Below are positions 3,822 through 40,981 of a DNA stretch of 44,733 nt, piece by piece. The DNA is from a virus. Made by a program: the position numbers and the translations under genes. The DNA lies in IMG/VR virus record IMGVR_UViG_3300007539_000041, positions 1 through 44,733 of that record; one strand, 5' to 3'. Numbering within the stretch: the first letter of the stretch is position 1; each line of letters opens with the position of its first letter. The notes under the pieces were generated by a model. The model saw only the letters and a program-made list of their open reading frames with translations. It made no database searches and had not been told where the DNA came from.

Positions 3822-4193
3822 ATGTTAAGTGATAAGAAGATTGTATCAGATAAGAGTGCTTTATTTGCACTAACCGAGCCTACGCTACATTATATCCGTG
3901 TAGCACCCGAAAGTGATGAATACCTCAAAGTGTGGATTAAAGAACCCACATGGCTTGAGGTGGACAAAGCCATGAACGCTATGATGAAAATTGATGCAAA
4001 GCGTCAAGACATGGACATTGACCTAAATGCAATGTTTCGCTTCATGGTTGAAAACTTCATTGTGAAGACAGAACCTTCTCTTTCGGCGGTTGATATTCTC
4101 CGCTTGACACCTTATGTTGGAAACCAACTCAAGGAAATTCTCCCAAATCCTTTAACGGCCTTAGAGGGGGATGAAGAAAAAAACGAAGAATGA
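3822..4193 (+). CDS. Tail assembly chaperone, G-like frame (123 aa)
   Basis: ATG at 3822 is preferred because GGTGGAG lies 5-6 bases upstream; an upstream in-frame TTG at 3795 lacks one. The protein is a soluble helical domain containing WIKEPTWLEVDKAMNAMM and ends in an acidic tail, as in lambda gpG-type chaperones. It lies between the tube gene and the tape measure, the conserved place of the G/GT pair. The last codons contain the slippery heptamer A_AAA_AAC in the correct frame 6 bases before the stop, which would fuse it to the next frame. It is thought to hold the tape measure protein during tail assembly. Confidence 0.75.
   Translation: MLSDKKIVSDKSALFALTEPTLHYIRVAPESDEYLKVWIKEPTWLEVDKAMNAMMKIDAKRQDMDIDLNAMFRFMVENFIVKTEPSLSAVDILRLTPYVGNQLKEILPNPLTALEGDEEKNEE
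4178..4184 (+). promoter_or_regulatory. Programmed -1 ribosomal frameshift site (A_AAA_AAC)
   Basis: In the zero frame the codons read GAA AAA AAC GAA GAA TGA, so A|AAA|AAC fits the X_XXY_YYZ rule exactly. Slipping back one base after AAC leads into the frame that encodes 4190-4399, giving a fusion of about 192 residues in place of the 123-residue product. The arrangement and position match the G/GT frameshift of tailed phages. Frequency and any downstream stimulatory structure cannot be read from here. Confidence 0.8.
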
Positions 4194-21696: not shown

Positions 21697-21985
21697 TTTT
21701 ATTACCTCCAAAATTAACTGTGGCTTCACCAAGCATTGAACGAATTGTTTCCGCTATTTCTCCGCTTAGTGTTATTTTTACTGCTTCTCTCATACAGTCT
21801 TCGTATGTTTGTCCGACAAATACTTCTTGTATTCGTATCTCTCTAATCAATTGAAATCTTTCAGTGAATGTCATTTCCGAATACAATTCCGAACATAGTG
21901 AATCAATCGTTGCCTTGAGATTTGAGATTTCAGTAAATGTCCATTGTTTTGATAAGACCTTTGCTCTAATCATCTCTTCCATCAT
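21611..21985 (-). CDS. Unknown helical protein overlapping the primase start (124 aa)
   Basis: ATG at 21985 (or 21982) overlaps the stop of the Cas4-like gene. The product is mostly helical (SELYSEMTFTERFQLIREIR, then MREAVKITLSGEIAETIRSM) and ends in a polar, Lys/Glu-rich tail. Its last 86 bases overlap the primase gene in another frame, and the primase ribosome-binding site lies within it. No domain is recognised. The tail could be disordered as a result of the overprinting. Confidence 0.5.
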   Translation of the reverse strand: MMEEMIRAKVLSKQWTFTEISNLKATIDSLCSELYSEMTFTERFQLIREIRIQEVFVGQTYEDCMREAVKITLSGEIAETIRSMLGEATVNFGGNKNEISTGSLGGEPHKERPTNEKKNSVLKE

Positions 21986-22893
21986 AACCACGAATCCTGT
22001 TGCGCTCCTTCGCAAATACCAAAGAAAGAACAATGGCTACAAGTTTTGTAATAAAACTTAGGCGCAAAGTGTTTATTTTCATAGGCATGAATTAATTCGG
22101 CAATATGATTCATAACAGAGGTCATTGTTCTTGTTTTGATAGGCTCAACTGTTATGTGATTTGCCACGGGATAATACCAGCCCCAATGAGATACTTCCAT
22201 ATCCTTTGATAGGCCATGCATTTGAAGAACTTCTTCTGTTGAGTTTTCAATCATCAATTGGTAGAATGCCATTTCCTTTCTCATACCCGTTGCTTTGTAG
22301 TCTTTCCATCCTCCGGTCTTGTATTCAAAGGGAATCAGTTTTCCGTTTTCAATAAATACTCGGTCAATAATTCCTTGGAGACGCACCTTGTAATCTCTTT
22401 GCAGAGTGAATTTCTTATGAGTGTCTTTAGGAATCATTACTTCGCAATCAAATTTCTTTTCATTAATGACTGGCAAAAATTCATCTGTCTTTCCTTCCGC
22501 TACTGCTTCAATAAAGCGTTGGGCTTCAAATGCCGCCACCGTTAAAGAAACATCGTAGTATTCATCTACTGGCATCAAAGAGTTGCAGTATTCCATGATT
22601 TCTGTATTGTTCATTTTCTCTGCCTTCTTAATGTCAAAATCATCAAAAAATGCTTCTCTGTGGTTGTGAAGAATTGTTCCTTTACGCATTGCTTCTGTTT
22701 GGTCTTGAGACAAACGCTCAACATAGGAGAACTCATATTTCTTAGGACACCAAACGAATGACATAAGAGAAGACTTAGAAATCTTCAAAATCGGTTCCGA
22801 TGGGTCGGAATAGTTCTCCGGCATCCACTTATATGTGAATTCTTTCATTTCTCCAAGCGATGCTTCGTATGCTTCTTCTTTATTCAAAACCAT
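21982..22893 (-). CDS. Cas4/RecB-like PD-(D/E)XK exonuclease with Fe-S cysteines (303 aa)
   Basis: The pattern fits Cas4/AddB-type nucleases: a first Cys in SFVWCPKKYEF (Cys49), GTILHNHREAF (His76), IDRVFIENGKLIPFEYKTG with Asp177, Glu190 and Lys192 as catalytic residues, a QMxFY-like KEMAFYQLMIE helix, then TCSHCSFFGIC (Cys285, 288, 294). The four Cys would hold an Fe-S cluster. The enzyme resects DNA ends in replication-linked recombination. The start ATG overlaps the PolB C-part stop, and GGAGG of the last PolB codons serves as ribosome-binding site. There is no CRISPR array in the window, so a role in spacer acquisition is not suggested. Confidence 0.8.
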   Translation of the reverse strand: MVLNKEEAYEASLGEMKEFTYKWMPENYSDPSEPILKISKSSLMSFVWCPKKYEFSYVERLSQDQTEAMRKGTILHNHREAFFDDFDIKKAEKMNNTEIMEYCNSLMPVDEYYDVSLTVAAFEAQRFIEAVAEGKTDEFLPVINEKKFDCEVMIPKDTHKKFTLQRDYKVRLQGIIDRVFIENGKLIPFEYKTGGWKDYKATGMRKEMAFYQLMIENSTEEVLQMHGLSKDMEVSHWGWYYPVANHITVEPIKTRTMTSVMNHIAELIHAYENKHFAPKFYYKTCSHCSFFGICEGAQQDSWL

Positions 22894-23771
22894 TCCTCCA
22901 GTGTTGTTTGTCCTTTTATTGTTCTAATGTTGTTAATTTGCCAACCCATCGCTTCATAGATAGGTTTAGCCTTTCTGATAAGTTGCTCTGCATAGTGGTG
23001 ATAGTCGGGCGTATAGGTGTTAAAATCCGAAAGGATTGTCCCCGAAACATACTCAACATCTCGCCTCTCTTTTGTCAAAGGGTTCGTGTATTTATCATTG
23101 ACCCCCGACACCTTCAAGAAAATGTAAGAGTCATCAAAGGTAGTGTTCTGCTTTTCCCAAGCATAGAGAACGCCAGCAATACCGGAACCAATTGAAGGGC
23201 GTTTGTCTTGTTCGGTTGTGAAGTTTTTCGGATTCTCTCCGCATCTTTCACACGCATAGACATTTAACATATCACGCATATTGAACTTTGCTCGGCACTT
23301 TTTACATTTCAGTTTAAATCTCTCTTCTTTCAACCTACTTCTCTTTGCTAAGTCGCTGATGGGTACTTCTCCATTCACCACTTTTTTGTAAGTTTCTGCG
23401 AGATAGGTGTTTATCTCAGCAAATGTCTTTTGGTTTGCCCACATCTTTAACAAAGTTGTTTGGAACTCCTTTGCTAATTTTGTTTCGCTAACTCGCTTTG
23501 CAGTGAAGCCAGTCATGGTGAATTTTGGTTCATCCAAATAAGAACCATCTTCCCATGTAATCATTCCTGCGTTTCTGTTTTTGACCGTACCGACACCCAA
23601 CGCTGAATAATACTTCTCAAACTCCAAACTAACGGGATGCTGTTCAAGTCCGAGAACATTCGGGAAACTTTTTTTGACTTCATCTTCAATCACCTTGATT
23701 GCTTTTTGTGCGGCTTCCACGGAATCAATTTGCACATAGATAGAATCGGTATGTCCATAAACCACTTTCAT
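22884..23771 (-). CDS. polB: Family B DNA polymerase, C-terminal part (palm motif C, thumb, PIP box; 295 aa)
   Basis: The chosen ATG at 23771 gives the start MKVVYGHTDSIYVQ, placing motif C at residues 5-10; GAGG lies 8 bases upstream. Motif C is YGHTDS, so the first Asp is His but the essential second Asp (Asp9) is kept. The thumb carries a zinc-ribbon-like insertion (FKLKCKKCRAKF ... ACERCGEN). The last residues GQTTLEEWF are a canonical PCNA-interacting (PIP) box, QxxLxxWF. It needs the N-terminal part encoded 580 bases upstream to be a working polymerase. An upstream in-frame ATG at 23822 is possible but would add residues alien to PolB. Confidence 0.85.
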   Translation of the reverse strand: MKVVYGHTDSIYVQIDSVEAAQKAIKVIEDEVKKSFPNVLGLEQHPVSLEFEKYYSALGVGTVKNRNAGMITWEDGSYLDEPKFTMTGFTAKRVSETKLAKEFQTTLLKMWANQKTFAEINTYLAETYKKVVNGEVPISDLAKRSRLKEERFKLKCKKCRAKFNMRDMLNVYACERCGENPKNFTTEQDKRPSIGSGIAGVLYAWEKQNTTFDDSYIFLKVSGVNDKYTNPLTKERRDVEYVSGTILSDFNTYTPDYHHYAEQLIRKAKPIYEAMGWQINNIRTIKGQTTLEEWF

Positions 23772-23775
23772 GTTA

Positions 23776-23976
23776 TCAGCCTCGGTAATGCACGAATAGC
23801 ATTCCAACGGGTTCACCTGCAAGTTTCGCTACCGTTTCTTGTAGTTCCGTAATTTGTGCTTTGATGTTTTGTAGTTTCTGCATATCAGCATACAGAGAAT
23901 CCATTTCATCAGCAATATGTTCCTTCATTTGTTTAATTTCTTTTAGGGTTTCAAAATATAGTTTTTCTTCTTTCAT
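23776..23976 (-). CDS. Coiled-coil microprotein inside the PolB split (66 aa)
   Basis: The ATG overlaps the stop of the TM peptide (TTATGA). Residues 1-50 form a charged, heptad-like coiled coil (LKEIKQMKEHIADEMDSLYA, then MQKLQNIKAQITELQETVAK). The C-terminus EPVGMLFVHYRG ends four bases before the PolB C-part start and contains its GAGG ribosome-binding site. Coiled-coil proteins of this kind often partner with small membrane proteins such as the neighbour. Function unknown. Confidence 0.6.
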   Translation of the reverse strand: MKEEKLYFETLKEIKQMKEHIADEMDSLYADMQKLQNIKAQITELQETVAKLAGEPVGMLFVHYRG

Positions 23977-24104
23977 AATACCACCACCAGTAAGGTAATA
24001 ATTGTTGCGATATTGACGACATTTACCATCATCAAAATCTTGTTGCTTCTATTTATCATGGCTAGCAACTCTTCCAGTAATTCATTCGTTCTGTCCATCA
24101 TCAT
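23973..24104 (-). CDS. Single-TM microprotein inside the PolB split (43 aa)
   Basis: It is read from three consecutive ATGs at 24104, 24101 and 24098 with GGTGTG upstream. The N-terminal half is a charged amphipathic helix (MDRTNELLEELLAMINRSN), followed by one hydrophobic span (ILMMVNVVNIATIITLLVVV) that runs to the end. Its start overlaps the upstream 57-residue gene by 23 bases in another frame, and its stop overlaps the next ATG. It may be a membrane partner of the 66-residue coiled-coil protein. Confidence 0.55.
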   Translation of the reverse strand: MMMDRTNELLEELLAMINRSNKILMMVNVVNIATIITLLVVVL

Positions 24105-24255
24105 TTTTATTCACACCTTGATTAATCTCAACTATTTGAGCGTGTCTTTTGAGATTATTCATCATGCTAAGAATCTCTTGGACTTCTTCTAAAGTAATAT
24201 CCCAAGTTTCCTCAGTATCGTATTCTACTTTAACCAATACAAATTTAGTTCTCAT
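24082..24255 (-). CDS. Small acidic protein inside the PolB split (57 aa)
   Basis: ATG at 24255 has GGAGATG 7-8 bases upstream; longer in-frame starts would overlap the Zn peptide more. The sequence begins MRTKFVLVKVEYDTEETWDI and continues as a helix (LEEVQEILSMMNNLKRHAQI) and a polar Asn/Asp-rich tail. It looks like one beta strand plus one helix. No domain is recognised. Confidence 0.5.
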   Translation of the reverse strand: MRTKFVLVKVEYDTEETWDITLEEVQEILSMMNNLKRHAQIVEINQGVNKNDDGQNE

Positions 24256-24346
24256 TTGCCCATCTCCATTCTTTGTAGCATTTCCAGCAAAGTCCATGAT
24301 TTGGATGAATAGCCGTTCTTTTTCTGCATCGTTTGCATATTTTCAT
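24245..24346 (-). CDS. Zn-ribbon microprotein at the PolB N-part stop (33 aa)
   Basis: This short gene starts at an ATG that overlaps the PolB N-part stop (GTATGA) and ends at TAA 24245. The peptide MKICKRCRKRTAIHPNHGLC then WKCYKEWRWANEN has CxxC pairs at Cys4/Cys7 and Cys20/Cys23, so it is a minimal zinc ribbon with basic and aromatic residues. GGAG lies about 10 bases before the ATG within the PolB codons. It could bind nucleic acid or bridge the two PolB pieces, but this is conjecture. Confidence 0.55.
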   Translation of the reverse strand: MKICKRCRKRTAIHPNHGLCWKCYKEWRWANEN

Positions 24347-25980
24347 ACTTTCATCTCCTTAGCCTTAAATGCCGCTAAACGAATTGCTTCTCTTGCACTT
24401 GCAGTAATAGATGCGGCTAAATCTACATCAGCCCAACCAAAACCTTGGAAGGCAACGATACCATAGAAAGAAGCCATGAGTCTTTTAACCGCCATTTGAT
24501 TGTTATACCACTTTTGATATTCTCCATTGTTCGTCTCTCTTGCTTCTTTCATCAGTCGCTTGTAATCGTTCCGCAACTCTTTCAACTCAAGGACGGCTCT
24601 CGGAAGAAGCCCCAGTTTATCAGTCTTATAGTAGAGCATATCCCGGTGTTTTACATCGCTGAAATCTCTTGGCGTTGAGATGTTCACGGCAAACTCTGTT
24701 GGTTCTTCCGACTTGGTTTCCCAAGAAATGTTTCGTGCAATCATCATTGAAGGGTAAAGTCCTGCATAGTCAAATGCGGCCACATTCAAATGAAGCCCTT
24801 GAGTTTGTTCACTCAATGGGTCGTAAATCATAGCCCCGTCATATTCTCGGCGTTCAATATCTCTGTTTCCTGTTGGTGCTTTCCAAGTAGCGTTTCGCAT
24901 AAAATAGATTGAACCCATATGACTTGCATAAAAACAAGCATCAAAGGGTGCTTTCAACAAACGCTGTAATGAAACAATTGCTTCACTACAAAAGTTTGTT
25001 TCGTCAATACGCACTAATAATTCAACATCAACCACAGCATACTCCAAATACACTTCTGTATCTTCTAACCATGCTCTGCGGAAAAATTCGTTTTTGTCTT
25101 CAAATTTACCCTTCTTTACTTTACCTTCACCAAAAAGTGTTTGTGAAACATACTCAAGACTTAGAGAAGGTAATGTTCCTCTTTGTGAGTCATTCCATTG
25201 ACGCTCAAAAGCAAGGTCAAGAGAGAGACTTATGCGGCCCCCTACGGGCTGTTCAATGGGTGAGAAACCCTTTTCAGCATAGGCAAAAGAAAAGCCTCCC
25301 TTAGTCGCCTTAACCCCCTTAACGCTGGCAGTTGGAGATATGATGCGGGGGTCAATTCCCAAAGCACAAGCCCTCTTGAGAAGATGAGGCAAGTCAAACT
25401 TATTTCCAAACCAAGCAATTAACATATCGGGGTCTTTCATAATCATTGTATTCAAAAAAGAATCTATCATATCCCTTTCACTGCTAAAAACAAAACAGTT
25501 TGTCTCAGTATTGGTTTCTTCGGGAAACCAAACCCACTGTAAATACTCTTTATCGTAGTTATCATATGCAACAATCGTTGTAATGCAATCGTGAAACTCT
25601 CCACCCTGTTGCCATTCCATATCCCAATACCACTTACGCATTTCATACTCTGGCATTTTGTTGATTTCATCAACAGCATACCTAAAGTGATAAGGAACAT
25701 CGGCTTCATAGGTTTTAGAAAACTCTTCTTTTGCTTTACGAATATCAAAGGAAGATTCAACATAAACTTTCTTCAACTGTTGTCCTTCCAAATTAAAGAA
25801 GTCGCCTTCTTCATATTCAAATTGACGCTCAATGTATTTTGATGGCTTGTAGTGTCTAGGGGTTTCATTTTCATGAACATAAAAATATGGACGGAACGGA
25901 ACGATGTTCCATTTCTTCTCGCCATTTTCTCTCCAAGATGTGTATATATTTTGACCTTTATTCATTTTACTAATTATCAT
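24343..25980 (-). CDS. polB: Family B DNA polymerase, N-terminal part (exonuclease + palm A/B; 545 aa)
   Basis: The proofreading 3'-5' exonuclease is intact: YWDMEWQ (Asp120, Glu122), AWFGNKFDLPHL (Asp196) and YAVVDVELL (Tyr314, Asp318). Polymerase motif A is FDYAGLYPS (Asp404), and motif B is AVKRLMASFYG (about 498-507), with Ala in the usual Asn position of NSxYG. The protein stops after ...AAFKAKEMKV, exactly where an uninterrupted PolB would continue into motif C. The start follows directly after the PCNA stop (TGAATG). It must pair with the C-terminal part for activity. Confidence 0.9.
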   Translation of the reverse strand: MIISKMNKGQNIYTSWRENGEKKWNIVPFRPYFYVHENETPRHYKPSKYIERQFEYEEGDFFNLEGQQLKKVYVESSFDIRKAKEEFSKTYEADVPYHFRYAVDEINKMPEYEMRKWYWDMEWQQGGEFHDCITTIVAYDNYDKEYLQWVWFPEETNTETNCFVFSSERDMIDSFLNTMIMKDPDMLIAWFGNKFDLPHLLKRACALGIDPRIISPTASVKGVKATKGGFSFAYAEKGFSPIEQPVGGRISLSLDLAFERQWNDSQRGTLPSLSLEYVSQTLFGEGKVKKGKFEDKNEFFRRAWLEDTEVYLEYAVVDVELLVRIDETNFCSEAIVSLQRLLKAPFDACFYASHMGSIYFMRNATWKAPTGNRDIERREYDGAMIYDPLSEQTQGLHLNVAAFDYAGLYPSMMIARNISWETKSEEPTEFAVNISTPRDFSDVKHRDMLYYKTDKLGLLPRAVLELKELRNDYKRLMKEARETNNGEYQKWYNNQMAVKRLMASFYGIVAFQGFGWADVDLAASITASAREAIRLAAFKAKEMKV

Positions 25981-26745
25981 TCAATCACCAATTTGTGGGG
26001 CTTTTAGAATCATTCTGTCTTCTGCTACAATAAGCAGGGGAAAGTCATCCTTCACATAGAAGTTTAACAACTGTTCTTTATCAAAGAAGTTATGGATGGG
26101 GCTAGTATAATCAAGAGAAGCCGCTTCACCAAGAACGCTTACTGGGGTAATTGTTTCCGTGTATCTGTTCTGCACATTCTGTTGTGAAGAGAGAGTAATT
26201 GTTTCCTTGTTAAAGTTAAGGCTATACACTCCACTCTTGACCAATTCGCAATTCTTGATACAAGATTTGAATTGGTCGGACACTAAAGAAAAGGCTCCCT
26301 CAAAGGTTGTCTTGCCAAAGGTAGGCAATTTATCCAATACAGCCGACCATACGATTCCTTTCGTTCTTTCCAAAGAGTTTTCTAAAGCATCCATAGCAGG
26401 ATGATTTACAACTTTAGGTAGGCTCGCTTGTTTTCCTGTTTGGGTGATTGAAATAAAATCACCACCCGCCACAGTAATATTGTTCTTGAATGATTTTAAG
26501 TACGGTAAAACAACCGTTGCATCAACGACACAGTTTCCATTTTCTTCACCAATAACGGGAAGGGTAATTTTAGCCATGAAGATGGCTGAACCATTTACAA
26601 TAGAAAGGGTGTTTCCTTCAAGAACAACATAGATGTAGTCGCCCATTGAAGCGTTGCCGAAACCCTTTGAGGTTAGGGACTTTCCTTTGACACGAATACT
26701 TTCAATTGCTTGTTCTAGTTCTTTTGCGCTAACTGTAAATTTCAT
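25981..26745 (-). CDS. PCNA-like sliding clamp (254 aa)
   Basis: The length equals archaeal PCNA, and the C-terminus EDRMILKAPQIGD matches the typical ending with 'APRI'. The sequence starts MKFTVSAKELEQAIESI and shows two similar alpha/beta domains. The N-terminal domain (VVDATVVLPYLKSF) is also reminiscent of a bacterial beta-clamp strand-helix pattern, so the fold family is clear but the closest relative is not. A GGAGA ribosome-binding site precedes the ATG. It tethers PolB, whose C-terminal PIP box would bind it, and is loaded by the RFC proteins of the same operon. Confidence 0.75.
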   Translation of the reverse strand: MKFTVSAKELEQAIESIRVKGKSLTSKGFGNASMGDYIYVVLEGNTLSIVNGSAIFMAKITLPVIGEENGNCVVDATVVLPYLKSFKNNITVAGGDFISITQTGKQASLPKVVNHPAMDALENSLERTKGIVWSAVLDKLPTFGKTTFEGAFSLVSDQFKSCIKNCELVKSGVYSLNFNKETITLSSQQNVQNRYTETITPVSVLGEAASLDYTSPIHNFFDKEQLLNFYVKDDFPLLIVAEDRMILKAPQIGD

Positions 26746-38566: not shown

Positions 38567-39053
38567 TTGTTTCACCTCTTAGGCGCATCAACTTATCGTT
38601 GAGTTTGTTCATTTTAGCGATTATACGCTTCTCCTTACGGCTTGAAGGAATCTTGGGTATGTAAGGTTCCTTTCGTTCTCGGACGGTCATAGCGGCCTTC
38701 CTAACAAGTTCTATGTGGGTCAGTTCTGTGCTGTCAATCAGTTGCTCAAGACGACCAGCACATTCAGCATAACTACAATTAAACCATTGTCGCACTTCAT
38801 CAATACTCATGTCATAGAAATTAACCAGCAAGAATAAATCTTTCTTCGCATCCCAATCCGATGAAGTTTGAGTTTCTTCAACAATAACTTTAGTTTGTTG
38901 TAGTTTCTTCCATTTCATTTTTGTTGCGTGTGCTGAACGCTTATTTCCAGAAACGGATTCAACCGCATAAGCGACTGATTCAAATTCAGTCGCATTGGTA
39001 ATCTTCAACAATAATTCCTCTTCTTCCTTTGTCCATTTTATTCCTCGGCTCAT
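38559..39053 (-). CDS. Myb/SANT-like tandem helix DNA-binding protein (164 aa)
   Basis: The N-terminal part IKWTKEEEELLLKITNA with SVSGNKRSAHATKMKWKKL resembles a Myb/SANT repeat (W..EE..LL...). A second one is DWDAKKDLFLLVNFYDMSI then VRQWFNCSYAECAGRLEQL. The C-terminus is basic (SRKEKRIIAKMNKL). It could be a viral regulator of transcription. It lies between the E1-like and JAMM genes with ATGA overlaps. Confidence 0.55.
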   Translation of the reverse strand: MSRGIKWTKEEEELLLKITNATEFESVAYAVESVSGNKRSAHATKMKWKKLQQTKVIVEETQTSSDWDAKKDLFLLVNFYDMSIDEVRQWFNCSYAECAGRLEQLIDSTELTHIELVRKAAMTVRERKEPYIPKIPSSRKEKRIIAKMNKLNDKLMRLRGETNE

Positions 39054-39607
39054 ACATTCACCACCATATATTCTCTAACTTCTTCGCCGTTAAACCAGCG
39101 TTGAATCCATTGTGCGCCCAATCCTGCAATTGCGACTTGCATGTAATGAACGCCTTTATTTGTTCCATCCCATGAATCTCCTTGACAACTAAAAGAACCT
39201 TCTTCTCCGGCTAAAAGCATATCATACATCTTCGGGTCTGCTTTATGACTCACAAGTGCGGCGTTCCTACCTTGCGCCCGTAAGTCAAGCCACTTAACAT
39301 TTGTGTTGTAAAGGGTTCGTCGCAACCCGATGTTATCAACACAACAAATAACCAAATCAAATCCTTTCATTTGTGATTCTGCAAGAATAGGATAGGGACT
39401 CATATGAACAACAGACCCATACTCGTCTCTCATCACGCTTGCTTTGTTTTGCCCAATGTGTCCTTTCTTGAAATTTTGGTATGACATATTCTTTTTCTCT
39501 ACCTTATCTGGGTCGGAAACTGAAATGTTATACAACCCTGCTCTGTGTAGAATAGGAATTAGAAAACTTCCAATTCCACCTGCTCCAATTACTAATACCT
39601 TTCTCAT
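39050..39607 (-). CDS. ThiF/E1-like adenylyltransferase (185 aa)
   Basis: ATG at 39607 overlaps the upstream stop (TAATG), with GGAGG 9 bases before, so it is chosen over starts at 39670 and 39616. The Rossmann motif VIGAGGIGSF (8-13) and SDPDKVEKKNMSYQNF (Asp32, Asp34, Asn40) match the E1/ThiF/MoeB fold that adenylates the C-terminus of a ubiquitin-like protein. The usual Arg of NxxRQ is Tyr. Only one candidate Cys remains (GSFSCQGD), so CxxC zinc pairs are missing. No ubiquitin-like partner is visible nearby. Confidence 0.75.
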   Translation of the reverse strand: MRKVLVIGAGGIGSFLIPILHRAGLYNISVSDPDKVEKKNMSYQNFKKGHIGQNKASVMRDEYGSVVHMSPYPILAESQMKGFDLVICCVDNIGLRRTLYNTNVKWLDLRAQGRNAALVSHKADPKMYDMLLAGEEGSFSCQGDSWDGTNKGVHYMQVAIAGLGAQWIQRWFNGEEVREYMVVNV

Positions 39608-39786
39608 TATTCCCATCCTCCATTTTCTATTGTGTATTTTATTGTTTCTAAATCCCAAATCTTTTGACATTCAAGACATTCTGCTGTTTTATCTGTTGGT
39701 TTCCATTGAACCACCGTTGGATGGTCGCCAAAATGAACATCAGCGCAAAGGCAACTAAAGCCCAAAATTAATTTATCTTCTCTCAT
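39607..39786 (-). CDS. Zn-binding microprotein (59 aa)
   Basis: ATG at 39786 has GGAGGAAT upstream, and its TAA forms TAATG with the E1-like start. Two CxC/CxxC-type pairs (SCLCADVH and AECLECQKIW) flank a beta segment with His residues, suggesting a zinc ribbon. The start and stop overlaps make it a real gene although very short. Function unknown; the coupling suggests it acts with the E1-like enzyme. Confidence 0.55.
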   Translation of the reverse strand: MREDKLILGFSCLCADVHFGDHPTVVQWKPTDKTAECLECQKIWDLETIKYTIENGGWE

Positions 39787-39798
39787 ATTTATTCCTCC

Positions 39799-40122
39799 TT
39801 AAAACGATTTGCCATGCATAAATTCACGGCTTTTATTGTATTCAATCTTAGCGAGAATCGCACCCGCTACATCTAAGTCCATACCAAAAGCATAGTCCAT
39901 AATCCGAATTATCACATCTGCAAATTCTTCTTCAACACTACTAAACTCCATGATTTTATTTGATGACGGATTTCCATCACGCATGGCTTCCAATGCTTCG
40001 GATAATTCCGAATGCATAAGAGCAACTGCTTCTCCATCATTTCTATCTACTTGCCAAAAGCCATGATTCACGGCATTGGTGTAAATTGTTTTTGCTAATT
40101 TATTCCATTCTTTTTCAAACAT
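39799..40122 (-). CDS. MazG-like NTP pyrophosphohydrolase (107 aa)
   Basis: The all-alpha MazG fold is seen in LMHSELSEALEAMRDG (ExxE) and EEEFADVIIRIMDYAF (ExxD), the four metal ligands. An ATG at 40122 overlaps the TFB stop region; AGGTGA lies 5-6 bases upstream. Enzymes of this kind hydrolyse NTPs or dNTPs, keeping the nucleotide pool clean or regulating alarmones during infection, and are common in marine viruses. Confidence 0.75.
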   Translation of the reverse strand: MFEKEWNKLAKTIYTNAVNHGFWQVDRNDGEAVALMHSELSEALEAMRDGNPSSNKIMEFSSVEEEFADVIIRIMDYAFGMDLDVAGAILAKIEYNKSREFMHGKSF

Positions 40123-40981
40123 CTGTTTCACCTATTTTGTTTATATCTTTGCCTCTTAATTGTTTTACCGACTCTTTCCCAATCAAGGCTAAAAGGGATT
40201 TTGTCTGTTGATATATATTCTTTTCATCAAAAGAACATAACTTGCTAATTTCTTTACGGCTCGGTAGTTTTCTCTCAAAAATATTTGAGGTTATCCAACA
40301 AATCGCCGCATAGTAGCATTTGCCTTTTGTGAAATTACTATTGCTCACAATATTCTCAAATCGGGCAAGGACTTCCAAACATTGTTGGAGATAAATTCTA
40401 TCCTTTGTTATCTGCAACACATGGTATTCTAGTTGATATGCAGGATTAACTTCGGTATAATTGATTTGATTACGATAAAGAGAGTTGAGTCTCCTAATTA
40501 TCTTACGCACATTTTTTGGCTTGACTTCAAATTCTACCATAATTTTCTTAAGAGGTAGGGGCGTACCTCGCTCTTTCAAAGCATAGAAAACAACGGCAGT
40601 GGCTCTATCTTCAAAAGGAGTTTTACCGAACACTCCTTTTCTGTATGCCTCCATGTAAATTTTCTCAACTCTTTCTTTCAAAGACGGAGAAGGGGAAAAG
40701 TTCGCCAAAACCATATTGCAGTGTAGTAGAGCCTGTTGGATGTTTGTGGGTACAACGCTTCTTTTAAGGCGGTTAAACTTGTAAGACCCTTCTCCGGTGA
40801 TAATGGAACCCAAATATCCCTTATCGGGAGAGCGAGCCACCTCACCTTTACTGTCCAAAATGTGAACAGTTTCTTCAAACATCTCAGTTATGAGAACAAG
40901 ACCGCATGAATCACACACACGCTCTCCCATCTCTTCATCAAAACTACTATCCGTACTACCGCATTCTTCGCATTTGTTCAT
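40115..40981 (-). CDS. tfb: Transcription initiation factor TFB (288 aa)
   Basis: The N-terminal zinc ribbon is MNKCEECGST then RVCDSCGLVL (Cys4, 7, 23, 26). A B-finger-like linker follows (SPDKGYLGSIITGEG). Two cyclin folds make up the rest (SPSLKERVEKIYMEAYRKG ... RATAVVFYALKERG, and YLQQCLEVLARFENIVSNSN ... CYYAAICWITS). A viral TFB would steer RNA polymerase to viral promoters. Its start overlaps the upstream gene by 26 bases. Confidence 0.9.
   Translation of the reverse strand: MNKCEECGSTDSSFDEEMGERVCDSCGLVLITEMFEETVHILDSKGEVARSPDKGYLGSIITGEGSYKFNRLKRSVVPTNIQQALLHCNMVLANFSPSPSLKERVEKIYMEAYRKGVFGKTPFEDRATAVVFYALKERGTPLPLKKIMVEFEVKPKNVRKIIRRLNSLYRNQINYTEVNPAYQLEYHVLQITKDRIYLQQCLEVLARFENIVSNSNFTKGKCYYAAICWITSNIFERKLPSRKEISKLCSFDEKNIYQQTKSLLALIGKESVKQLRGKDINKIGETDV

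Follow-up and report, generated by a model that had tools for sequence, protein, structure and literature searches.

The family B DNA polymerase (PolB) of the virus studied here is encoded in two parts, and we give a probability of roughly 0.87 to the reading that it is an obligate two-polypeptide enzyme, assembled non-covalently, and that the junction between its two genes is a gene-capture site. The stretch analysed, called the window below, comprises the 44,733 nucleotides (44.7 kb) of the IMG/VR virus record IMGVR_UViG_3300007539_000041; related loci are designated by L and a number.

The polymerase gene is divided just before motif C

The upstream part, PolB-N (24343..25980, minus strand, 545 aa; Pfam DNA_pol_B_exo1 and DNA_pol_B), contains the exonuclease, palm motif A and fingers motif B, and its translation ends in AFKAKEMKV-TGA, short of motif C. 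The downstream part, PolB-C (22884..23771, minus strand, 295 aa), starts at 23771 with MKVVYGHTDS and thus opens on the catalytic motif C (YGHTDS, 23742..23759, minus strand, from the translation), followed by the remaining palm and the thumb. The Pfam DNA_pol_B profile is covered consecutively, positions 40-193 by PolB-N and 222-372 by PolB-C. The C-terminus of PolB-C is a PIP-box-like QTTLEEWF (22887..22910, minus strand), a putative sliding clamp binding element. A gene for a PCNA-like sliding clamp lies directly upstream of PolB-N (25981..26745, minus strand; PHROG DNA polymerase processivity factor, a weak match at E 0.0012), and one for a PD-(D/E)XK nuclease comes after PolB-C (21982-22893, minus strand).

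The stop-to-start gap between the two parts is 571 bp and holds four small ORFs, all on the minus strand: a variable module encoding a CxxC-type Zn ribbon of 33 aa (24245..24346), the constrained microprotein ORF57 (24082..24255, from its translation), the membrane-helix microprotein TM43 of 43 aa (23973..24104) and a fast evolving coiled coil of 66 aa (23776..23976). The end of PolB-N, AAGGAGATGAAAGTATGA (24343..24360, minus strand), provides a Shine-Dalgarno sequence and a stop-start overlap for the next ORF. The repeat ATGAAAGT occurs at 24354-24347 and 23771-23764; the figure of 583 bases given for the insert in the original prediction is the distance from one repeat start to the other. 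All the coordinates proposed there for PolB-N, PolB-C, the repeat and the small ORFs were found to be correct.

The window also encodes a chaperonin (Cpn60), a ligase, an RFC-like AAA protein, ERCC4, a clamp-like protein, a TFB-like Zn ribbon protein and tail genes. The ligase and chaperonin, together with the RFC-like, ERCC4 and TFB-like proteins, match the make-up of the magroviruses of Poseidoniales, which are viruses of marine archaea (PMC10768690, PMC10160649), and on gene content the virus belongs with the aoguangvirid-like Magrovirales, this placing being informal at the family level. A ThiF/E1-like adenylyltransferase gene (39050-39670, minus strand; Pfam ThiF, E 3e-18) is also present, as is a gene for a TFIIB-type Zn ribbon protein (40115-40981, minus strand), probably a viral transcription factor B.

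The split is found throughout a group of magroviruses

In two more IMG/VR records, the 2200 bp that span the junction match the window with 100% identity. A search of IMG/VR with PolB-N matched 484 stretches; the best 80, together with two further searches, gave at least 104 magrovirus loci with both PolB parts and 88 distinct inserts between them. The break point is identical in all 104 split loci: the N-part ends soon after the SITASAREAIR helix, typically with ..AAFKAKEM.., and the C-part starts with M.VVY[G/A]HTDS, or with V in place of M, motif C being invariant among the split relatives except for A instead of G in a few. When the C-part of L048 was the query, four loci only were retrieved. 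IMG/VR gave no hit for FKVVYGHTD, as would be expected of an unsplit polymerase carrying F where the split ones have the start codon. The genomes of the relatives measure 88-103 kb and most encode a chaperonin; in all 13 near-complete split genomes of this size the split pair gives the sole PF00136 matches. The gene thus consists of two ORFs with their own starts that make up one polymerase, with no other copy, and Pfam, tree and fold matches over both parts together place it in the magrovirus/halovirus branch of family B. Because two records match perfectly across the junction and 104 related loci are cut at the same point, the split is real and is not an assembly error, and the prediction of a naturally split PolB broken just before motif C is confirmed.

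Some oddities were met among the split and unsplit loci. IMGVR_UViG_3300021958_000021 (184733 bp) contains two different split PolB pairs, L018 (35147-44811) and L164 (127966-136916); this 184.7 kb record is about twice the size of a magrovirus genome and perhaps represents two genomes joined in assembly. In L046, PolB-N has an in-frame TAG (~4063-4065) that is absent from its close relative L040. L104, a near copy of the unsplit PolB of L103, is interrupted by an in-frame TAG immediately past motif C (~5426), which could be a variant, decay or a sequencing error.

The two parts together correspond to a complete polymerase

In the original prediction the two parts were overlapped at the MKV that both contain, with no missing or extra residues. 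This is wrong: plain concatenation of N and C gives the length of the unsplit PolB of HVTV-1 and VOLN27B within ~1 residue, and merging the two MKVs would cost three residues. The N-part tails differ among the split relatives (MEV, MEI, IET, MEE, ME, KIDE and others) and the ATGAAAGT repeat is present in only 3 of the 88 distinct inserts, so that both the repeat and the MKV overlap are due to chance; a target-site duplication, a hop site and a recombination scar were ruled out as explanations of the 8-bp repeat on the same count.

Each part was modelled singly with AF2, on shallow alignments of 41 and 39 rows for the two parts. The PolB-N model (pLDDT 89.4) is least sure at residues 371-410, around motif A, and its terminal helix (519-542) is the one that precedes motif C. 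In the PolB-C model the thumb is confident, and the palm strands at residues 1-10 (motif C) and 50-94 are low. Foldseek matched the PolB-N model to archaeal PolB (E 1e-24) and the PolB-C model to the PolB of P. abyssi (E 1e-6). Since the first model ends in a helix and the second opens with the motif C strand, the break is predicted to fall in the loop between them. Low confidence in the palm of both parts would be anticipated for a palm that the two form jointly, and could also be explained by the shallow alignments.

The split arose once and preceded the present insert

The original prediction had proposed a search of related viruses for an unsplit PolB and for the same insert. Unsplit PolB does exist, in haloviruses (HVTV-1, VOLN27B) and in the marine magrovirus-like records L103, L106, L111 and L112, and the content of the insert proved variable among the 88. 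The GHTDS form is common to the unsplit L103 and L111 and to the split polymerases, and the records of L103 and L111 also encode a chaperonin. In a tree of 69 rows, one branch with a support of 100 separated the split from the unsplit sequences, and a slower tree of 36 rows gave the same separation (100/100, in all 200 bootstrap trees). Both trees indicate that the split arose once and is ancient. The nearest unsplit relatives in the tree are other marine magrovirus-like genomes and then the haloviruses, several of the unsplit rows having long branches that leave their mutual order unsure.

Among the split loci, L116/L160, with inserts of 222-243 bp, and L109/L136, with inserts of 102 and -4 bp, branch off first (their mutual order is weakly supported, 80/82), and it is these earliest branches that have the shortest inserts. 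In L136, where the N stop overlaps the C start, the two parts might conceivably be fused by a -1 frameshift, a point against the two-polypeptide reading. The original prediction had the four-gene cassette splitting PolB. As inserts extend from -4 bp to 2.8 kb without frame constraint, are shortest in the earliest branches and are dispensable in L136, which is split without any insert, the split is older; the current cassette came after the break and did not cause it.

Insertions of another kind were seen in two further loci. The unsplit PolB of L101 (3935-7477) has a 393-aa in-frame insertion within YGDTDS that ends in ..MLVHN-TDS and is a probable intein, and L105 has a 437-aa insertion starting near motif B.

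The junction gains and loses small genes

The 88 distinct inserts have a median length of 874 bp, with extremes of -4 and 2819 bp and modulo-three remainders of 36/26/26. The N stop lies in an ATGA context in 68 of the 88, where the next ORF mostly starts. A Shine-Dalgarno sequence of at least 4 bases precedes PolB-C in 79 of the 88, compared with 31% of internal ATGs, and one of at least 5 bases in 49 of the 88, compared with 3.6%. PolB-C has, in most members, a ribosome-binding site of its own.

ORF57, TM43 and the coiled coil (the last in 66/88) form a core in most members. The modules ahead of this core change, and comprise wHTH-like ORFs (in 51 inserts; so called from their sequence appearance, with library matches to none), Zn-binding ORFs and endonucleases. 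The Zn ribbon ORF is missing from the close relatives L005, L007 and L008, and related ORFs occur in 16 of the 88 inserts. No endonuclease gene lies between the PolB halves in the window; such genes are found in some relatives only, by a profile match in L029 (HNH, PHROG 1271, E 2e-6) and by an HNH motif in L121/L123 and L031. The first insert ORF of L159 (563 aa) matches PHROG 22677 (no function named, E 9e-11) and displays, by eye, the motif YEFHGDVFHGNP; it may be a Vsr-like endonuclease.

Pairs of loci with and without a given gene were informative. L136 lacks and L109 has a 38-aa membrane ORF, their flanks being 91-95% alike; L042 lacks and L029 has a 662-bp HNH gene; L018 and L031 differ by 592 bp; and L005 and L002, the latter of the window's type, differ by ~91 bp with the Zn ribbon. 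The HNH gene of L029 is flanked on either side by ~22 bp from the N end (AAAGGAGATGrAAGnATGAA), and a copy of the PolB-N end sequence stands at the 3' end of some captured genes. As the copied N end carries its own Shine-Dalgarno sequence and start, a captured gene would land in a translatable place. Altogether, these comparisons indicate that the PolB gene junction is a site of small-gene gain and loss, for which homing and short-homology recombination are candidate mechanisms.

ORF57 and TM43 are constrained

The median dN/dS was ~0.10 for each of the junction ends of PolB-N and PolB-C, 0.13 for TM43 and 0.16 for ORF57, as against 0.81 for the coiled coil and 0.83 for the wHTH-like ORF, poor alignment possibly contributing to the last two values. 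ORF57 is present in 64 and TM43 in 74 of the 88 inserts. Matches in Pfam and PHROG to the three core proteins, the coiled coil included, were weak and we do not credit them. An alignment search of IMG/VR with TM43 gave 233 loci, of which the best 80 were looked at: a PolB half adjoins TM43 in 78, and the two exceptions are a 279-bp scrap and L198, which has no downstream room and whose 2.5 kb of upstream sequence contain no N part. Among these 80, TM43 therefore appears to be confined to the split PolB junction. The split does not need it, because L048, L165, L116, L160, L136 and L144 have neither TM43 nor a strong membrane segment. The early-branching L109 and L154, also without TM43, carry unrelated short membrane peptides in the same gap.

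ORF57 and TM43, both constrained much as the polymerase is and the latter met only between its halves, could conceivably act together with the two-part enzyme, for example by holding the replisome at the membrane or by timing its assembly. We consider this unlikely. For the earlier suggestion of a regulated two-part enzyme we obtained no support.

A probable two-polypeptide polymerase and its alternatives

We infer that the two parts assemble non-covalently, are active and bind the clamp. PolB-N and PolB-C would be translated separately from one operon beside the clamp gene and then assembled without a peptide bond, PolB-N bringing the exonuclease, the fingers and motifs A and B, and PolB-C bringing motif C, the remaining palm, the thumb and the PIP-like box. 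The palm would be built from both subunits, with the break in the loop that leads from the palm helix into the motif C strand. In Aeromonas phage 25, the two polymerase parts 43A and 43B co-purify and are active (PMC2988022). A PIP-like box terminates the thumb part in 82 of 83 C-parts (Q-x-x-L-type in 78, F in the place of L in 4 more), so PolB-C probably carries the clamp contact, and this box would tether the enzyme to the sliding clamp. The split had one origin, in the ancestor of the aoguangvirid-like magrovirus clade, and was retained; the stop/start junction, with its Shine-Dalgarno sequence and ATGA overlap, later gained and lost small genes, endonucleases among them.

A broken polymerase or an assembly artefact is refuted for the clade: single metagenome contigs can be chimeric, and isolated in-frame stops do occur elsewhere in the PolB of L046 and L104, but the split is present in independent records and in a whole clade, both parts are under purifying selection and the genomes have no other PolB. 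A single chain might also be restored by removal of the insert, through a group I, group II or bulge-helix-bulge intron or through ribosome bypassing. The join is clean at the protein level, and PolB genes often harbour group I introns and inteins; however, insert lengths run from 2819 bp down to a -4 bp overlap that cannot be an intron, the insert borders have no signals in common but the stop/start and Shine-Dalgarno ones, a separate start signal precedes PolB-C in ~90% of cases, and the ORF content of the inserts changes freely. No Rfam intron match was obtained in the insert up to E 1, and the L136 overlap and the changing borders speak against a bulge-helix-bulge intron in particular. We therefore hold insert removal to be extremely improbable.

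It is also very improbable that the split is the remnant of an intein that lost splicing, as could be imagined from the probable intein at motif C in the related L101 and from the erratic intein excision proposed for the split of Methanobacteriales (PMC4104785). The L101 insertion interrupts YG(D)TDS roughly seven residues past the position of the break, and neither PolB part retains intein ends. An intein or split intein is further countered by lengths that are not multiples of three, by stops at the N end and by the lack of an intein ORF, in agreement with the earlier statement that no intein or intron signature is present. A homing endonuclease gene might instead have inserted before motif C, caused the split and later decayed, the present ones being later arrivals or relics. 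This reading concerns the origin of the split and is thus compatible with the two-polypeptide enzyme. HNH-type genes at the site (L029, L031, L121/L123), the ORF with a Vsr-like motif in L159 and the splitting of phage genes elsewhere by endonuclease insertion argue for it; the earliest branches, L116/L160 and L109/L136, have no endonuclease, and those present today occupy a site that had been split before and vary from one lineage to another. We hold an endonuclease origin to be less likely than not. The two-polypeptide polymerase is the reading that we retain.

Here, then, a replicative polymerase has been kept in two parts, cut beside a catalytic motif, throughout a marine virus radiation. 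Close pairs differing by one captured gene form a natural series on how split enzymes arise, persist and gain genes, and the two constrained microproteins, TM43 and ORF57, have no known function. A gene caller or PolB survey that expects a single full-length ORF will misread or drop the clade.

Comparison with known systems

The split itself is not new, since PolB-NTD and PolB-CTD are already labelled in the type virus, Aobingvirus yangshanense YSH_150918 (order Magrovirales), in a figure legend of the Aoguangviridae ICTV profile (PMC10768690). This virus of ~92 kb has a clamp, a clamp loader, a ligase and a chaperonin, and aoguangvirids encode a PCNA-like sliding clamp (PMC10768690). The likeness to our virus lies in the two-part PolB and the replication genes; the record of the type virus did not turn up among the hits in the collections searched. 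The profile does not discuss the split, no mention of it was met in the other magrovirus texts searched, and it may have been described in Philosof 2017. Within the literature that could be searched, we met no description of a single origin for the whole clade, of a fixed break point with revolving content, or of the constraint on TM43 and ORF57.

The PolB of M. thermautotrophicus (Methanobacteriales) also consists of two polypeptides (PMC7776575, PMC4104785), and is comparable as a two-polypeptide archaeal PolB; it is, however, a cellular PolB3 for which an intein origin has been proposed, and a literature search on MTH1208/MTH208 found nothing. In Nanoarchaeum equitans, PolB comes from two genes that a split intein could rejoin (PMC4104785), whereas the magrovirus split has no intein. 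The polymerases of L103, L106, L111, HVTV-1 and VOLN27B are full-length homologues, but in one uninterrupted chain. Another two-piece viral PolB is that of the T4-like Aeromonas phage 25, gp43A/gp43B, in which the intervening gene is a homing endonuclease; the window, having none between its halves, is not of this type. The phage 25 junction is not, as far as seen, a clade-wide gene-capture site, and its break lies in the fingers before motif B, whereas that of the magroviruses lies before motif C.
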